Positions 14,577-46,664 of a stretch of 46,664 nucleotides of DNA are shown here, one piece after another; position 1 is the stretch's first letter; each line of letters begins with the position of its first letter. Under the pieces are notes generated by a model. It was given only the letters and a program-made list of their open reading frames with translations. It had not been told where the DNA came from and did no database searches. The position numbers and the translations under genes are program-made. This DNA comes from Rhodanobacteraceae bacterium (GTDB lineage Bacteria; Acidobacteriota; Terriglobia; Terriglobales; Acidobacteriaceae): positions 1 to 46,664 of the forward strand of contig JANXWZ010000014.1 in assembly GCA_025350865.1 (NCBI GenBank), written 5' to 3'.

Positions 14577-14612
14577 AATACTGAGATTCTTCGCTTTGCT
14601 CAGAATGACCTC
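14577..14612 (+). repeat. Family B hairpin repeat, copy B1
   Basis: The segment reads AATACTGAGATTCTTCGCTT then TGCTCAGAATGACCTC. It shares the AATAC-GAGATTCT start and CAGAATGAC end with copies at 21281, 21435, 28014, 33791 and 45013. It lies in the gap between divergent terC and the DUF3761-like gene. Confidence 0.7.
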
Positions 14613-15275: not shown

Positions 15276-15291
15276 GGGTTTGAGCCTGGTC

Positions 15292-15333
15292 GATCCCAAC
15301 TCAAACGATAGGACTGTTTGAGATGGGGCACCC
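15292..15333 (+). repeat. Family A dispersed palindromic repeat, copy A3
   Basis: The copy reads GATCCCAACTCAAACGATAG, then GACTGTTTGAGATGGGGCACCC. The imperfect arms CTCAAAC and GTTTGAG form a hairpin. It closely matches the coding copy in tatA (17300-17341), including GATCCCA at the left and TTTGAGAT-GGCACCC at the right. It sits between convergent genes. Confidence 0.75.
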
Positions 15334-15348
15334 GGCGGTGTGTGCGGG

Positions 15349-16338
15349 TTAGTGCAGGTTGACAAGATTGATGAGTTCGAGGAAGAGGTCGGCGGCGGTT
15401 TGCAGGGATTGCGCGCTGATCTTGTCGATCGTGTCCTCGGCGGTGTGGTGGTAGCCGTCAGAGTGTTTCGCGTCGTGGGGGCCGTAGTTGTAGTCGATGA
15501 TGTCGAGGACCGGGACGCCGCGCTTGTGGAAGGGGACGGTGTCGTCCTCGATGGGGGTGGTGTCCTTGGAGAGGGCAGCCATGTGGTTGGTGTTGCGGGC
15601 GGCTTCCTTCAGGAGGTCGACCATGTGGGGGTCGGAGTTGCCGTCGAGGTCGATGTCGAGGTTTTTGTCGCCGATCATGTCGGCAAGCAGAAAGGCCTTG
15701 ATCTTACCGATGGTGCCGTCCTGCGACCATTTGGCGGCGAGGTGGCGGGAGCCGTATAGCGAGTCTGATGGGCCCCATTCCTTGACGGCCTCTTCGCCAT
15801 CGAAGAAGACGAGGACCACGCTGTAACCCTGCGGGGGATGGGCGCGGAAGTACTCGCCGAACGCGATCAGCAGGGCGGAAGTGCAGGCTCCGTCGTTGGC
15901 TCCGACGAAGGGAATGTCTCTGAGCGGGTAGTTGGTCTCGTAGTGGGAGCCGAGGACGATGATGCCGTCTTTCTTGCCGGGCCCAACACTGGGAAAGCGG
16001 ACGACGATATTGCGCAGCGACTGGAGGCCGGCCGGCGTGGTGGCGGTGAAGCTGTCGATCTCGACGCGATGGTCTTTCTGCTCAGGGGCGAAGCGGGAGA
16101 GGATGTATTTCTCGGCGGCGGCGTGGCCAGGGGAGCCGTAAAAGCGCTTGGGTGCGGCGGCTAGGAGCTCTTTGGTGATGGTGTAGGTGGTGGCGCCAGG
16201 GATTTTGCCGTTGGATTTCTGGGCGTGGAGTGGAGTGAGCGAGAACAGGGCCAGGATGAGTCCGAGGATTCCCACCTTAGCGACAATGGAGCCGTCGCGA
16301 AGATGGGGCACCCGATTGATTGCCAGGTTGAGACTCAT
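15349..16338 (-). CDS. M28-family zinc peptidase, glutaminyl-cyclase-like, exported
   Basis: The 329-residue protein belongs to the M28 family and is closest in pattern to glutaminyl-peptide cyclotransferases. It shows VLGSHYET, FVGANDGACTSALL, VVLVFFDGEEAVKEWGPSDSLYGSRHLA, LLADMIGDKNLDID, PIEDDTVPFHKRGVPVLDIIDYNYG and YHHTAEDTIDKIS. These hold the expected zinc ligands and the catalytic Glu. It would form pyroglutamate at peptide N-termini or act as an aminopeptidase outside the cytoplasm. Its ATG overlaps the tatC stop (ATGA), fixing the start. Residues 9-23, between start and the hydrophobic signal core (GILGLILALFSLTPLHAQ), are encoded by a family A repeat. Confidence 0.85.
   Translation of the reverse strand: MSLNLAINRVPHLRDGSIVAKVGILGLILALFSLTPLHAQKSNGKIPGATTYTITKELLAAAPKRFYGSPGHAAAEKYILSRFAPEQKDHRVEIDSFTATTPAGLQSLRNIVVRFPSVGPGKKDGIIVLGSHYETNYPLRDIPFVGANDGACTSALLIAFGEYFRAHPPQGYSVVLVFFDGEEAVKEWGPSDSLYGSRHLAAKWSQDGTIGKIKAFLLADMIGDKNLDIDLDGNSDPHMVDLLKEAARNTNHMAALSKDTTPIEDDTVPFHKRGVPVLDIIDYNYGPHDAKHSDGYHHTAEDTIDKISAQSLQTAADLFLELINLVNLH
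16271..16313 (-). repeat. Family A repeat copy A4, inside the M28 peptidase signal region
   Basis: On the plus strand the copy begins CCCACCTTAGCGACAATGGA and ends GCGAAGATGGGGCACCC, with GCGAC-aatggagcc-GTCGC as its hairpin. Read on the minus strand in the gene's frame it encodes RVPHLRDGSIVAK. The frame stays open and the element supplies the basic n-region before the signal-peptide core. Confidence 0.7.
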
Positions 16339-17123: not shown

Positions 17124-17694
17124 GGGCGGAGGTCTCAGTTTTGTGGTGCGTGGTTGCGGGGTCCGGGGTCTGCGGGATGGAGTCGAACATAGCATCGAGG
17201 CTACGGTTGCGGGGAATCGGCAGGCCGGTAGATGGTGGCATCATGGAGAGGTCGCCGTTGGTGGCAATGGGAAGTGGTTCTACGGAACTCACTTCAGTGG
17301 ATCCCATCTCAAACGATGAATTCGTTTGAGATGTGGCACCCGGTTCTGACTTGGCGGCCTCAGCGGCTATGTCTTCGGGCGCGGTCGGCGCGATGTAGGG
17401 CTGGTCGGGGTCGTACTCGACATGCGGCGTGATCGGCTGGTCGAGGGGCGCTTCACTCGATTCGATGACGGGCGCGACCGGCGCAGCGGCTTCCATGGCT
17501 TCGATCTTCTTGCGGTGTTCGGTCTGTTCGATCTGGCGGAATTCGTCGTCCATCTGCATCCGGAATTCGGAGGAGGCGCGACGGAATTCGTTCATCAGCT
17601 TGCCGACGTAGCGGGCGAGCTCGGGTAGCTTCTTCGGACCGAAGAGGAGCAGGGCGATGAAGAAGATGACGGCGCTGTCTTGAAAGCTGGGCAT
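17116..17694 (-). CDS. tatA: TatA/TatB-family translocase subunit with long tail
   Basis: The first 45 residues are a classic TatA/B module: a short N-terminus, a membrane helix (about 7-19), the FGPKKLPELAR hinge and an amphipathic helix. At 192 residues it is longer than a normal TatA (about 60-90). The extra tail is acidic and Pro/Ser-rich. Residues 118-132 (GATSQTNSSFEMGS) are encoded by a family A repeat that keeps the frame open. FGP-KLPELAR suggests TatA-type, but the long tail and single copy beside tatC would also suit TatB. No other tat gene is in the window. Confidence 0.85.
   Translation of the reverse strand: MPSFQDSAVIFFIALLLFGPKKLPELARYVGKLMNEFRRASSEFRMQMDDEFRQIEQTEHRKKIEAMEAAAPVAPVIESSEAPLDQPITPHVEYDPDQPYIAPTAPEDIAAEAAKSEPGATSQTNSSFEMGSTEVSSVEPLPIATNGDLSMMPPSTGLPIPRNRSLDAMFDSIPQTPDPATTHHKTETSAHG
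17300..17341 (-). repeat. Family A repeat copy A5, inside tatA
   Basis: On the plus strand the copy carries a perfect inverted repeat ATCTCAAAC (17306-17314) and GTTTGAGAT (17324-17332), flanked by GATCCC and GTGGCACCC. It is nearly the same as intergenic copy A3. Within tatA it is read in a different frame from the copies in the peptidase and the aminotransferase. Confidence 0.75.
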
Positions 17695-21280: not shown

Positions 21281-21318
21281 GAGGTCATTCTGAGCGCAGC
21301 GAAGAATTTCCGTATTTC
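21281..21318 (-). repeat. Family B hairpin repeat, copy B2
   Basis: The plus strand reads GAGGTCATTCTGAGCGCAGC then GAAGAATTTCCGTATTT. This is the reverse complement of the AATAC-GAGATTCTTCGC-CAGAATGAC type seen at 14577 and 45013. It lies just after the propeller gene. Confidence 0.7.
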
Positions 21319-21340
21319 GCTCGTCCAACCCCGATCGTCC

Positions 21341-21380
21341 GGGTGACTCATCTCAAACGGTTTCATCGTTCGGACTGGGT
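21341..21380 (-). repeat. Family A dispersed repeat, divergent copy A6
   Basis: On the minus strand this reads CGTTTGAGATGAGTCACCC, related to the TTTGAGATGGGGCACCC end of A3 and A5 with small changes. It is preceded by an imperfect CGAACGATGAAACCG stretch. It is sandwiched between two family B copies in the 287-base gap between the propeller and SH3 genes. Confidence 0.5.
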
Positions 21381-21434
21381 CGAGCAAAAGCTAGAGCAAT
21401 TTGCCCTTAGGACTTCACTCAACCCACCACTCGC

Positions 21435-21466
21435 GTCATTCTGGCGTAGCCAGAATCTCCGTATTT
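21435..21466 (-). repeat. Family B hairpin repeat, copy B3
   Basis: The perfect hairpin TTCTGGC-gta-GCCAGAA is flanked by GTCA and TCTCCGTATTT. The same stem with other loop bases occurs at 28014 (ttc) and 33791 (tgc). Confidence 0.8.
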
Positions 21467-21551
21467 GCATTGTGCCAAACGCCGCGAACCATTCTAAGCA
21501 AGCGCGATTCCGAAAGCCCGATGGTAACCTTCGGTTAGGGATGGGGAAACA

Positions 21552-23824: not shown

Positions 23825-24198
23825 AAGGGATGGTATCGGTTGATGAGGTGATCGCTGCGCTGCCTAAGGCCCGGCAACTGGCTATTGAAAAGCGGGGCGC
23901 GGAGCTGCTGGCAAAGGTAGAGCGCCGGATGACGCTCGCCGAGCTGCGCAAACAACGTCACCTAAGCCAGACGAAAATGGCAGAAGTTCTAGGCATCGGC
24001 CAGATGCAGATTTCCCGGCTCGAGAAGAGGAAGGATCCAAGACTGTCGACGATCGAACGCACGGTTGCGGCCATGGGTGGGAGCTTGACTGTGATCGTGA
24101 CGTTCCCGGATCAAGAGCCGGTAATCCTGACGGCCCATCGCTCGCCAGAAACTAAGATTGCCCCCGCAAGAAGTCCAAAGCGGAAGCGTCAAGCGTAG
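23821..24198 (+). CDS. XRE-family antitoxin
   Basis: The 125-residue protein has a helical N-terminus (VSVDEVIAALPKARQLAIEK), a helix-turn-helix (MTLAELRKQRHLSQTKMAEVLGIGQMQISRLEKR, about 38-71) and a following helix (LSTIERTVAAMGGSLTVIVTF). This is typical of antitoxins paired with Gp49-like RelE toxins. The basic tail (SPKRKRQA) overlaps the convergent aminotransferase by ten bases. It would neutralise the toxin and repress its own promoter. Its toxin is frameshifted, as in the first toxin-antitoxin locus of this window. Confidence 0.85.
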   Translation: MKGMVSVDEVIAALPKARQLAIEKRGAELLAKVERRMTLAELRKQRHLSQTKMAEVLGIGQMQISRLEKRKDPRLSTIERTVAAMGGSLTVIVTFPDQEPVILTAHRSPETKIAPARSPKRKRQA

Positions 24199-25442
24199 AA
24201 GTTGCGGATGGCTTCGACCACCGTCTGCTGCTCGTCATCCCGCATCTCGGGATAGATGGGCAGCGCAAGGACCTCGGCGGCGGCGCGCTCGGCATGCGGA
24301 AAGTCGCCGGTCCGGTAGCCAAGTGGGAGCAGCGCTTTCTGCTGGTGGAGGCAGAGCGGGTAGTAGATCTCGCTGCCGATGCCCCGTGCGGTGAGGTGGG
24401 CGCGGAGGTCGTCGCGGCGTGGCACTCGGATGACGTACTGGTGGAAGATGTGCTGGGCGCGGGGGTGCGTGTAGGGCAGGACGATGCCGTCGGCGACGGT
24501 TTTGGGTGAGTCGGGTGACGTAAGGACGCCGATGCCGGAGGCCAGGAAGAGCTCGTTGTAGCGTGCGGCCAGCTCGCGGCGGCGTTGGTTCCAGCTCGCT
24601 ATATAGCGGAGTTTGACTTCGAGAACAGCGGCCTGGATCGAGTCCAGCCGCGAGTTCCAGCCAACCTCGTCGTGGTAATAGCGGACGGTCATGCCGTGCG
24701 CTCGGAGCGAGTTGGCGTGGGAGGCTAACTCCGACGAGCGCGTGGTCAGGAGGCCGGCGTCGCCGAATGCAGAGAGATTTTTTGTGGGGTAGAAGCTGAA
24801 CGCGGCGGCGTCGCCGAGCGATCCGGCAGGGCGGCCGTCCCATGTAGCGCCGAAGGCCTGGGCAGCGTCTTCGATGAGCAGCAGGCCGGGGTTTTCCTGC
24901 TGGATCGCCGTGAAGGCGTCCCAGTCGGCGCACTGGCCGTAGAGGTGGACGGGCAGGATCGCTTTCACGTTCCGGTGTTGGCTCAAGGTCTCGCGGATGG
25001 ATTCCGCGGAGAGGTTGAAGGTGATGGGGTCGATGTCGGCAAAGACGGGGCGAGCCCCCGCGCGGAGGATCGAAGAGGCGGAGGCGAAGAAGCTGAACGG
25101 GGTGGTGATGACCTTGTGGGATTCGTGGCTGTCCCACTCATCCCGGTAAGACTGTGAGGAATGGGGCACGGAGTTGTCGAGCGGGCAGAGGTGAGAGGTG
25201 CCGATGTTGGCGGCGGCGAGGGCCAGCCAGAGGGCGTCGGTTCCGCTGGCGCAGCCGACGGCGTAGGGTGTGGCGCATGCCTGGGCGGCGGCTTTCTCGA
25301 AAGAGGCGACTTGCGGGCCGAGAATAAAGCGTTGCGACGTGCAAGCGTCTTCAATGGCCTGCATCACCTCCTCGCGCAAAATTGCGAACTGGCGGGCGAA
25401 GTCGAGCATGGGAACGGGTTGGGCGGGGCGGATTTCGGTCAC
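24189..25442 (-). CDS. DegT/DnrJ/EryC1/StrS-family aminotransferase carrying an in-frame repeat insertion
   Basis: This PLP-dependent sugar aminotransferase family makes amino sugars for surface polysaccharides. Family motifs are complete: FILGPQVASFEK, GCASGTDALWLALAA, PVHLYGQCADWD, LLIEDAAQAFGA, SFYPTKNLSAFGDAG (Schiff-base Lys near residue 221), GWNSRLDSIQAAVL and YYPLCLHQQ. The protein is 417 residues, longer than usual (about 370-390). The excess lies between ANIG (residue 81) and KVITTPF (110), where relatives have only about three residues (PGD-like). Those 28 residues are encoded by a family A repeat with flanks. The fold may tolerate the insertion because it falls in a turn. The exact sugar substrate is unknown. 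Confidence 0.9.
   Translation of the reverse strand: MTEIRPAQPVPMLDFARQFAILREEVMQAIEDACTSQRFILGPQVASFEKAAAQACATPYAVGCASGTDALWLALAAANIGTSHLCPLDNSVPHSSQSYRDEWDSHESHKVITTPFSFFASASSILRAGARPVFADIDPITFNLSAESIRETLSQHRNVKAILPVHLYGQCADWDAFTAIQQENPGLLLIEDAAQAFGATWDGRPAGSLGDAAAFSFYPTKNLSAFGDAGLLTTRSSELASHANSLRAHGMTVRYYHDEVGWNSRLDSIQAAVLEVKLRYIASWNQRRRELAARYNELFLASGIGVLTSPDSPKTVADGIVLPYTHPRAQHIFHQYVIRVPRRDDLRAHLTARGIGSEIYYPLCLHQQKALLPLGYRTGDFPHAERAAAEVLALPIYPEMRDDEQQTVVEAIRNFYA
25116..25199 (-). repeat. In-frame insertion containing family A repeat copy A7 within the DegT gene
   Basis: The core at 25133-25169 matches the intergenic copy at 35289-35325 at 33 of 37 positions, both starting CCCACTCATC and ending GAGGAATGGGGCAC. 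The extra residues (SVPHSSQSYRDEWDSHESH and preceding) exactly span the place where the protein departs from family length. No stop is introduced and the frame is kept. Confidence 0.8.
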
Positions 25443-27981: not shown

Positions 27982-28013
27982 GATTTCGCATGCTGTGTAG
28001 TAGAACGAAAGAC

Positions 28014-28049
28014 AAATACTGAGTTTCTGGCTTCGCCAGAATGACGACG
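28014..28049 (+). repeat. Family B hairpin repeat copy B4, inside the atp operon
   Basis: AAATACTGAG precedes a perfect hairpin TTCTGGC-ttc-GCCAGAA and ATGACGACG follows. It occupies the atpH-atpA gap. There is no U-tract after the stem, so it is unlikely to be a strong terminator, but it could mark an RNA-processing or attenuation point. Confidence 0.8.
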
Positions 28050-33740: not shown

Positions 33741-33789
33741 AGGCAACCGCAGATTCCTCCCCATTGCGGCGGGATGACAAACAAAAGGC
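33741..33789 (+). repeat. Family D repeat (GACAAACAAAAGG), copy D2
   Basis: The segment starts AGGCAACCGCAGATTCC and ends GCGGGATGACAAACAAAAGG. It shares these parts with copy D1 and joins directly to a family B copy at 33791, showing the repeats can be stacked as mosaics. Confidence 0.6.
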
Positions 33790-33790
33790 T

Positions 33791-33825
33791 AATACGGAGA
33801 TTCTGGCTGCGCCAGAATGACGGCG
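33791..33825 (+). repeat. Family B hairpin repeat, copy B5
   Basis: AATACGGAGA precedes the perfect hairpin TTCTGGC-tgc-GCCAGAA, followed by TGACGGCG. Stem identical to B3 and B4, loop different. Confidence 0.8.
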
Positions 33826-35241: not shown

Positions 35242-35288
35242 GGCAGAGGGAGAACGCAAAGCTCGCAGGTAGGACGTGAGGGTGAGTT

Positions 35289-35325
35289 CCCACTCATCGC
35301 GGTACGGCTGCGAGGAATGGGGCAC
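35289..35325 (+). repeat. Family A dispersed repeat, copy A8
   Basis: CCCACTCATCGCGGTACGGC followed by TGCGAGGAATGGGGCAC. It is the intergenic relative of the copy inserted in the DegT gene, matching at 33 of 37 positions. Confidence 0.75.
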
Positions 35326-35370
35326 ATAGGAATTTGGGGTGGGCGTAAGAGTGCGGTCGGCTCCGCCGAT

Positions 35371-37108: not shown

Positions 37109-37129
37109 CGGGCGTTTACCTTTTGATGA

Positions 37130-37161
37130 CAGTTGATAGTGAGTAGTTGGTAGTTGGTAGC
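37130..37161 (+). repeat. TTGGTAG/TTGATAG simple repeat upstream of trxA
   Basis: The segment reads ACAGTTGATAGTGAGTAGTT followed by GGTAGTTGGTAG. The same seven-base units build the large hairpin at 41311-41376. Confidence 0.55.
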
Positions 37162-41305: not shown

Positions 41306-41310
41306 GAGGG

Positions 41311-41376
41311 CAGTTGGTGGTTGATAGTTGGTAGTAGATGCAAGACTACCAACTACCAACTATCAACTACCAACTG
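41311..41376. repeat. TTGGTAG/TTGATAG inverted repeat
   Basis: The left arm CAGTTGGTGGTTGATAGTTG continues GTAGT (to 41335). After nine loop bases the right arm (41345-41376) is its reverse complement with one extra seven-base unit. The last three codons and stop of the DppC-like gene (GVS-type end, TGA at 41365-41363) are made from this repeat. Confidence 0.75.
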
Positions 41377-42202
41377 TAATTCTCGGGTCGAGGTAGTCGC
41401 GCAGGGCGTCGCCGATGAAGTTGAAGGAGAGCACGGCGAGCATGACGGCGAGGGCGGGGAAGACGACCATGTGGGGGGAGTCGAACAGGTGGCCGCGCGC
41501 GTCGTTGAGCATCGACCCCCAGGATGCGGCGGGAGCTGGGATGCCGAGGCCGAGGAAGCTGAGGGTGGCCTCGGCCAGGACGGCTCCGGCCATGCCGATG
41601 GCGGCCTGTACGATGAGCGGCTGGACGATATTCGGGAGGATGTGACGCGACAGGATTCGCAGGTCGGAGGCTCCCAGGGCACGGGCGGCTTCGACGAACT
41701 CGCGCTCCCGGACGGCCATCACCTGGGCTCGGACCAGGCGGGCGTAGCCGACCCATCCTGAGAGCGAGAGGGCGAGGATGAGGTTGACCAGACCGGGTCC
41801 GAGGAAGGCTACGAAGGCGATGGCGACCAGAATTCCGGGCAGCGCGAGGAAGGCGTTGGAGACGTAGACATTGAGGATGATGTCGGCGACGCCGCCATAA
41901 AAGCCTGCCAGGCATCCCGCGATTAGACCTGCCGCGAGGGAAATTCCGACAACCGACACGGCAACGATGAGCGAGATGCGCGCGCCGTAGAGCGTGCGGG
42001 AAAGGATGTCGCGGCCAAGCTCGTCGGTGCCGAATAGGTGAATTGGGGCCGGCGAAGCCATGCGGTCGTTCAGGTTGAGGGCGGCTGGGTCCTGCGGGGC
42101 AAGGAGAGGCGCAAAGATTGCGCAGAAGATGAACCCGAGCAACAGGACGACGCCCGCAGCGGCGAGGGGTTGGCGTCTGGCGAGATGGGAAATCCGGGTC
42201 AT
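41363..42202 (-). CDS. ABC transporter permease, DppC/OppC type
   Basis: The 279-residue membrane protein has the DppC features LFGTDELGRDILSRTLYGAR near residue 56 and the EAA loop VREREFVEAARALGASDLRILSRHILPNIVQPLIV near 162-196. LSFLGLGIPAPAASWGSML lies near 213. It should pair with the DppB-like permease at 39146 to form a peptide-type importer channel. The two are on opposite strands, which is unusual for partner permeases. Its final residues come from the simple repeat at 41311-41376. Confidence 0.93.
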   Translation of the reverse strand: MTRISHLARRQPLAAAGVVLLLGFIFCAIFAPLLAPQDPAALNLNDRMASPAPIHLFGTDELGRDILSRTLYGARISLIVAVSVVGISLAAGLIAGCLAGFYGGVADIILNVYVSNAFLALPGILVAIAFVAFLGPGLVNLILALSLSGWVGYARLVRAQVMAVREREFVEAARALGASDLRILSRHILPNIVQPLIVQAAIGMAGAVLAEATLSFLGLGIPAPAASWGSMLNDARGHLFDSPHMVVFPALAVMLAVLSFNFIGDALRDYLDPRITVGS

Positions 42203-45012: not shown

Positions 45013-45048
45013 AATGCCGAGATTCTTCGCTTCGCTCAGAATGACCTC
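45013..45048 (+). repeat. Family B hairpin repeat, copy B6
   Basis: AATGCCGAGATTCTTCGCTT then CGCTCAGAATGACCTC matches B1 and reverse-complemented B2. It lies between convergent genes, preceded by TTCAAACGA, a family A fragment. Confidence 0.7.
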
Positions 45049-45797: not shown

Positions 45798-45872
<75 letters not shown>

Positions 45873-46366: not shown

Positions 46367-46572
46367 TGTTCAGCCATCTTCGGGTAAGGTCTGCCAGAAG
46401 CGCGAAAACTGACTTGCATGTGCTTTCCGGTTCGGTCATTCCTGATGGGCATGTGCCAGACCCCTGATCGATAAATCTTTCCACTTTCGACATTGAAGCC
46501 GTGAAACCGCATATTGCTTCCCCCGAAGATAAAGGGCAAGTCAAAATCTCTGACGAATAAAGAAATGCCCAC
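46342..46572 (-). CDS. Small uncharacterised protein, probable mobile-element gene
   Basis: The 76-residue protein (MGISLFVRDFDLPFIFGG... ending EQWEATWTS) has no family I recognise. It overlaps the excisionase-like start by about 25 bases on the same strand, as in compact phage-like operons. It contains a basic, aromatic-rich middle (YRSGVWHMPIRNDRTGKHM). A competing longer frame (46308-46628) exists, but overlap with the excisionase gene makes this one the better choice. It is probably part of the element at the right edge. Confidence 0.45.
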   Translation of the reverse strand: MGISLFVRDFDLPFIFGGSNMRFHGFNVESGKIYRSGVWHMPIRNDRTGKHMQVSFRASGRPYPKMAEQWEATWTS

Positions 46573-46664
46573 GAACAGCGGTCCGGCTCATGCGCATCAT
46601 CAATGACCGGACCGGAAAGCACATGCAAGTCAGTGTTCGAACTCCTGGAACACCTTACCCAAAG

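Follow-up and report, generated by a model that had tools for sequence, protein, structure and literature searches.

In-frame REPs have already been published for several species, and the kind of event described here is a known one. Passages of PMC2229807 and PMC10969869 describe the Rickettsia palindromic elements, which occur in intergenic DNA and, in frame, within conserved genes; a guanylate kinase that carries one of them is made as protein and is active. The preliminary description of the locus discussed below named these elements as the only well-known parallel, a view that has to be widened, since passages of PMC3733652 place GTAG and CGTC REPs, palindromes of 20-40 bp, inside genes of several species. 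Many of those intragenic REPs lie in repair genes, others in genes for RNA helicases, tRNA synthetases and tRNA pseudouridine synthases, and in one case, Xanthomonas recB, different REPs occupy about the same site.

Acidobacteria appear in this literature as well. PMC3733652, in its passages on Y1 transposases flanked by inverted repeats (TIRYT), groups enzymes of Acidobacteria that include Granulicella mallensis; those of PMC6006769 assign class 3 TnpA-Y1 to Acidobacteria, with about 600 associated structures in Solibacter. Granulicella aggregans is found in a table of predicted REPs in PMC12306157. The passages on TIRYT and class 3 TnpA make no mention of in-frame copies in Acidobacteria (PMC3733652, PMC6006769), and the titles and passages of open-licence PubMed Central papers yielded no report of in-frame palindromes in this group.

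A repeat copy within a DegT aminotransferase gene

The locus lies in the window, by which is meant the whole 46,664-nucleotide stretch of DNA that was analysed. The features that concern us are as follows.

24189-25442, minus strand: DegT/DnrJ/EryC1/StrS aminotransferase gene (P0001, 417 aa, PF01041 match), carrying the repeat in frame
25116-25199, minus strand: divergent 28-codon loop, residues 82-109, made up of repeat and non-repeat sequence (from alignments)
25132-25169, plus strand: 38-nt imperfect palindromic repeat, TCCCA...TGGGGCAC, antisense to the DegT gene (from self-comparison and pattern)
25170-25179, plus strand: 3' tail, approximately RGAKTTGTGG, common to other CTCATCGC-type copies (flanks read by eye)
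35288-35325, plus strand: closest copy in the window; the longest open frame through it is 128 aa
15294-15331, plus strand: copy with a different stem (CTCAAACGA...TTTGAGA)
17302-17339, plus strand: copy with stem CTCAAACGA/TCGTTTGAG
16270-16311, plus strand: 42-nt copy within an M28 peptidase ORF (15349-16338, minus strand), at residues 10-23

In a profile search P0001 matches PF01041 at full length (E 3.5e-98, residues 22-413, profile positions 3-360 of 360), and the reading frame does stay open through the repeat, as had been claimed. The DegT gene reads the repeat as VPHSSQSYRDEWD, residues 92-104, and the tail as DNS, directly before the repeat-encoded residues. Window self-comparison gives 34/38 identity between this copy and 35288-35325, in keeping with the 33/37 first noted for 35289-35325. 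The same description assigned a repeat copy to the 84 nt of the loop, and this stands for about 48 of them (38 for the repeat alone, the rest for the conserved tail); the remainder is non-repeat sequence without known origin.

The DegT copy is a weaker hairpin than others in the window, and perhaps a decayed one, because its RNA folding is unexceptional on both strands (z -0.31 and +0.29) and that of three other copies is exceptional: z -2.38 at 35281-35331, -2.77 at 15288-15336 and -5.09 at 17297-17343. A search of the whole window against Rfam at gathering score returned nothing at the repeat; a tRNA at 45798-45869 was the sole match. The coding status of the copy at 16270-16311 depends on the choice of start codon: it is either an N-terminal insert in the M28 peptidase or lies upstream of its true start. 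This copy directly precedes a hydrophobic stretch of the ORF.

Self-comparison also brought out other repeated sequence in the window. A degenerate inverted relative of the copies at 15294 and 17302 lies at 21339-21379. A second dispersed repeat (AATACTGAGATTCTTCGCTT...CTCAGAATGACCTC) occurs at 14577-14612, 21281-21316 and 45013-45048, and a third, palindromic one (GAGATTCTGGCTNCGCCAGAATGACG) at 21434-21474, 28004-28049 and 33780-33825. Runs of a dispersed AGTTGGTAGTTGATAGT-like unit, direct and inverted, are found at 37126-37160 and 41309-41380, and the very end of the window is an inverted repeat (46378-46664) with 93-nt arms, 84% complementary, and 101 nt between them.

The DegT loop in related proteins

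Where P0001 has about 27 residues (query 82 to 109), PDB relatives have 1-2, and a short turn, usually IG-PG-D/A-VITT, is present in 72 of 93 aligned rows. The alignment consists of P0001 and 92 loci, one of which is the window gene itself, and some genomes are present twice. The preliminary description was thus right that the protein departs from its family at about 28 residues, where relatives have a short turn, and most rows show that turn rather than an unrelated sequence of the same length. None of the other rows examined has the window repeat in its DegT loop. The closest named relatives are mostly Granulicella and Edaphobacter; the closest of all (L099) has an unrelated 13-residue loop, and some lineages have longer loops that are likewise unrelated to the window repeat. 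Such long-loop rows, which hold no copy, show that the DegT loop lengthens without the window repeat as well.

In two metagenome-assembled genomes (L049 and L052) the loop that is filled in the window gene holds another palindromic element, of about 77 nt and with the same ends. Among the 40 first-look candidates scored in each, this element has at least 36 matches in the L052 genome and at least 26 in the L049 genome. Many of the matches cover the inner 38 nt alone, and the element therefore looks like a repeat nested within another. A second DegT loop holds a 38-nt element in L052, and the matching peptides in L054 and L089 suggest an insert inherited through divergence.

A tree of 77 DegT rows was built by a quick method, with loop columns excluded and identical rows merged; L098, the window gene's own copy, was left out, as were rows that are partial or distant. 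The loop exceeds the short length in 16 of the 77 rows, which requires at least four changes on a tree whose support is moderate in places, with 19 of 74 inner branches open. L049 and L052 share a clade (SH-aLRT 98) that lies away from the window protein, the sister of which is G006 (84), and for this reason the insertions in the window gene and in L049/L052 look independent.

The repeat family in the genome and the genus

The window belongs to a draft assembly of 4.78 Mb in 246 contigs (G000). The family pattern TCCCAN18-40TGKGGCAC has 66 matches in it, at 65 distinct sites, against 3 for a control with the pattern reversed. What had been described as a repeat family of the window does have copies there, and it is a family of the whole genome. 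Match lengths run from 31 to 49 nt, within bounds set by the pattern itself, and are mostly 31, 35, 38 or 42 nt. The stems vary (CTCATCGC, CTCAATCG, TGTCTCA and others), while the copies share their ends (outer signature TCCCA...TGGGGCAC). Being short, imperfect and present in many copies per genome, these palindromes are REP-like in a wide sense of the term.

A search for longer elements in the same genome gave six matches, none of which reads as a longer element: two are unrelated stretches (L158, L159), and four contain a shorter stretch starting with CCCCA, at least three of these being clear family copies. The count of 66 is an undercount, because the TCCCA pattern misses both CCCCA copies and the palindromes beside transposases that are discussed below.

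With the stricter end TGGGGCAC, a survey of 41 genomes of the genus found at least one match in 40 and at least six in 35, with a range of 0-204 and reversed-pattern controls never above 3; the six genomes with five matches or fewer are barely above the controls. Expansion of the repeat is unequal among lineages. The window genome has 60 stricter-end copies, and close relatives, as judged by the compared proteins, have 5 (G020), 6 (G006) and 32 (G031); given the 32 copies in G031, the copies are not evidence of a burst confined to the window lineage.

Coding copies in the window genome

At least 11 of the 66 matches lie in open frames of genes with Pfam support. Besides DegT, the genes or products concerned are Mfd, MnmG, ThiE, an Lhr-type helicase, an NRPS A domain, an acyltransferase-carrier/aminotransferase linker, ScpB, an M14 peptidase, PMT_2 and an allantoinase-like protein. 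Domain support extends to both sides of the repeat, or through it, in DegT, Mfd, the acyltransferase protein, NRPS, MnmG, Lhr, ThiE and the allantoinase-like protein, and to one side only in ScpB, M14 and PMT_2; the N-terminal part of ScpB is recognisable as such. The search considered open frames only, and the Pfam scan covered 30 of 54 distinct frames (56 rows) together with the DegT frame as P0001; two matches in long ORFs (L157, L030) fell outside it. Five Pfam-positive frames (L007, L008, L023, L154, L156) are left uncounted, as the repeat is N-terminal of the domain and possibly upstream of the start; by eye, the likely start of L154 and L156 follows the repeat. A 31-nt match in a PDDEXK protein (L024), possibly degenerate, is likewise uncounted.

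In 8 of the 11 cases the coding sequence follows the GTGCC...TGGGA strand, and in three (MnmG, Lhr and ThiE) the opposite one. One strand of the repeat has fewer stop-free frames, as read by eye, which may explain this 8:3 bias. Several reading frames are used among the 11 copies, so no particular peptide is preserved.

Comparison with orthologues was made on partial sets of 30 loci per gene; for MnmG, ThiE, Mfd, Lhr and ArgS the numbers of genomes matched, of 41, were 34, 39, 40, 34 and 41, respectively. Mfd is the cleanest further case of repeat-derived residues. Its stretch has 61 residues in the window genome and 43-49 at the 29 other loci, a gain of 18 over the nearest three, and the 18 extra residues are absent at all 29. 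In ThiE the stretch has 55 residues as against 46 in 26 of the 29 others (+9 aa). The MnmG stretch has 86 residues, 14 aa more than that of G020 (72), which is the closest by identity; since this variable loop spans 72-103 residues in other genomes, the gain is defined against G020 alone. Lhr would be a weak case of gained residues: the linker that holds the repeat varies in length and, at 65 aa, is shorter here than in every relative shown (68-85). The allantoinase-like copy spans an 8-residue gap of its PDB relative, and the NRPS copy brings no net gain over its own. At the thresholds used, MnmG, ThiE and Mfd have one match each in the window genome, and ArgS one in G034; because these matches are single, no insert-free copy of MnmG, ThiE or Mfd was found in the window genome.

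The in-frame palindromes would add some 10-26 aa to enzymes, a number of them DNA-repair and tRNA enzymes. That protein sequence has been gained from a dispersed repeat, as first proposed for DegT, is strongly supported: the repeat is multicopy, is absent from other DegT rows and recurs in other genes.

Loops used in more than one genome

Palindromes occur in more than one genome in loops of five genes: DegT, MnmG, ThiE, Mfd (a second loop) and ArgS. The MnmG loop contains CCCA...TGGGGCAC palindromes with other stems in G015, G030 and G029, and in G016 a palindrome lies just before the matched part, at a contig edge. Other repeated sequence fills the MnmG loop in G031, G014 and G064. That of G031 (L187) is a long palindrome of GGGAACAGGGATCAG-type units that is read through, with a predicted -54.5 kcal/mol for the loop. 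The same ThiE loop holds a degenerate 31-nt element in G016. The ArgS loop is occupied at 4 of 30 loci, by 31-nt palindromes in G034, G032 and G014 and by a different repeat in G024. In the second Mfd loop G011 carries an element of 38 nt, and G006 one of 31 nt. The ArgS, second Mfd and second DegT loops are without these palindromes in the window genome. Two loops, that of ArgS in G024 and that of MnmG in G064, contain sequences resembling the window's second dispersed repeat, AATACTGAGATTCTTCGCTT...CTCAGAATGACCTC, with the reading frame running through them.

Three further genomes were searched for coding copies, using 53 matches (21 in G026, 26 in G034 and 6 of the 15 in G011), with 20 of 29 distinct candidate frames scanned against Pfam. 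Five of the 53 lie in Pfam-supported genes: Mfd and MutS in G011, MutS2 and an acetolactate synthase-like gene in G026, and ArgS in G034. MutS2 has domain support on one side. The MutS and acetolactate synthase-like inserts were compared with PDB relatives only, and the intervals there are about 48 and 35 residues longer, respectively, which is more than the repeat alone. An LptE protein whose repeat is N-terminal of the domain (L310) is uncounted, as are two frames that look like chance matches (L339, with a weak TLC match, and L346). Repair and helicase genes make up 5 of the 16 Pfam-supported cases (11 + 5), namely Mfd twice, MutS, MutS2 and the Lhr-type helicase, a raw count that was noticed post hoc and concerns long genes.

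Origin and persistence of the in-frame copies

It is quite probable that these are REP-like mobile palindromes, kept within genes where they meet a permissive loop and a stop-free frame, and perhaps mobilised by Y1 transposases. The sequence at 25132-25169 would then be a copy of dispersed REP-like palindromes with variable stems, mostly 31-42 nt long and common in these Acidobacteriaceae, which entered the DegT gene at a loop whose length varies among related lineages. Insertion was probably indiscriminate across the genome, and Y1-type (RAYT/TIRYT) transposases may drive it in trans. Copies that break genes would be lost, with survivors between genes or at permissive loops, and selection would retain intragenic copies whose frame is free of stops and whose total length keeps the frame. 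Because the frame stayed open, the DegT copy would be expected to contribute about 13 translated residues to the protein (16 with the tail) and to be tolerated, presumably with a near-neutral effect.

The length of most elements is not divisible by three, and the net gains (Mfd +54 nt, MnmG +42, ThiE +27, Mfd of G011 +39) follow no fixed unit. Since these gains differ from the element lengths, each retained insertion would seem to bring along the tail and some slight gain or loss at its flanks, as far as orthologue comparison can tell.

There are six matches to PF01797 (Y1 transposase) in the window genome, one with an internal stop. Palindromes of this signature, with a first base other than T, lie beside two of them, 52 nt from the frame in one case and on both sides, in inverted orientation, in the other; none was found beside the remaining four. 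The match flanked on both sides (L167) is the one with the internal stop, a single TGA. No clear target duplication was seen, and 53 of the 66 family matches are not flanked by any abutting direct repeat of at least 2 nt.

The same repeats might have spread into loops by recombination or replication slippage, through template switching at hairpins or gene conversion, and not by a transposase. The lack of clear target duplications fits this route, and the variable net lengths, which match no fixed unit, could be explained by it too. Many matches to the L052 element cover the inner 38 nt alone, a repeat within a repeat; other repeated sequence occupies the same MnmG loop in G014 and G031; and four of the six Y1 matches lack such a palindrome. 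Even so, both the shared outer signature with its many stems and the two Y1 transposase genes with adjoining palindromes of this signature speak more for a recognised mobile unit. Spread by recombination or slippage is accordingly an unlikely account, if one to be taken seriously.

Selection for the inserts themselves, with the hairpin or the peptide functional in the host gene (as mRNA structure, an interaction surface or a means of modulating repair), seems improbable. The repair and helicase genes among the Pfam-supported cases (5 of 16, noticed afterwards) would suit it, and the passages of PMC3733652 include a repair-gene class for unrelated palindromes too. Against this, frames, orientations and stems differ, so that the copies hold no peptide in common, the DegT hairpin is weak, and repair genes are long and their count here small.

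Repeats are a known cause of assembly misjoins, and the window comes from a draft of 246 contigs. An assembly artefact or a pseudogene is nonetheless very improbable, as frames are open through whole genes, and like inserts recur in other assemblies, some of few contigs (G011 9, G014 4, G029 50), and in genes matched once per genome. The DegT loop does vary in length and sequence in related lineages, but chance resemblance is negligible as an explanation given 34/38 identity to the other window copy, 66 matches against 3, and like inserts in Mfd, MnmG, ThiE and ArgS.

Loops as possible sites of repeated entry

A wider proposal may be put forward tentatively: that, genus-wide and in free-living bacteria, certain protein loops are standing docking sites, repeatedly entered, replaced and nested in by several palindrome families, in frame. 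It is possible rather than probable. Were it true, mobile DNA would steadily supply core enzymes with new loop sequence, and the preference for repair, helicase and tRNA genes, apparent here and described elsewhere for unrelated palindromes, would be a property of the insertion process or of the genes and not chance.

A phenomenon best known from Rickettsia is now met in a group of soil bacteria. The order of events, from empty loop through insertion and decay to replacement, can be read there because many genomes at different distances have been sequenced. The MnmG, ArgS, ThiE, DegT and second Mfd loops, often with different stems, are natural replicates for the tolerance of proteins to insertion, and they let one ask whether mobile repeats feed protein evolution. 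For annotators, loop insertions in these proteins can be repeat-derived.

Comparison with known systems

As with the Rickettsia palindromic elements, the palindromes lie in frame in conserved genes and are absent in orthologues. The Rickettsia elements measure 105-146 bp or about 150 bp in the passages of PMC2229807 and PMC10969869, whereas those described here are mostly 31-42 nt, and the Rickettsia host is obligately intracellular whereas this one is a soil bacterium. RPE-4/6 end in CGTC according to a passage of PMC3733652; here 4 of 66 matches have CGTC close to the 5' end and none has it close to the 3' end (its complement GACG in 1 and 0, respectively). The Enterobacterial RU (ERIC) repeats are likewise small mobile repeats fused in frame to genes, but at 103-168 bp they are longer than the repeats considered here (passages of PMC2229807), and the Wolbachia palindromic elements, mentioned in PMC3733652, are a further small-repeat parallel.

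Like the GTAG and CGTC REPs, the present palindromes lie within repair, helicase, tRNA-synthetase and tRNA-modification genes. Unlike GTAG REPs, they have GTAG at neither end in any of the 66 matches, the complement CTAC being near the 5' end in one. Reuse of a loop concerns one site, that of Xanthomonas recB, in the passages of PMC3733652, and five genes here. Within the literature searched, what is new is the type of repeat, its host among the Acidobacteria and how extensively loops are reused.
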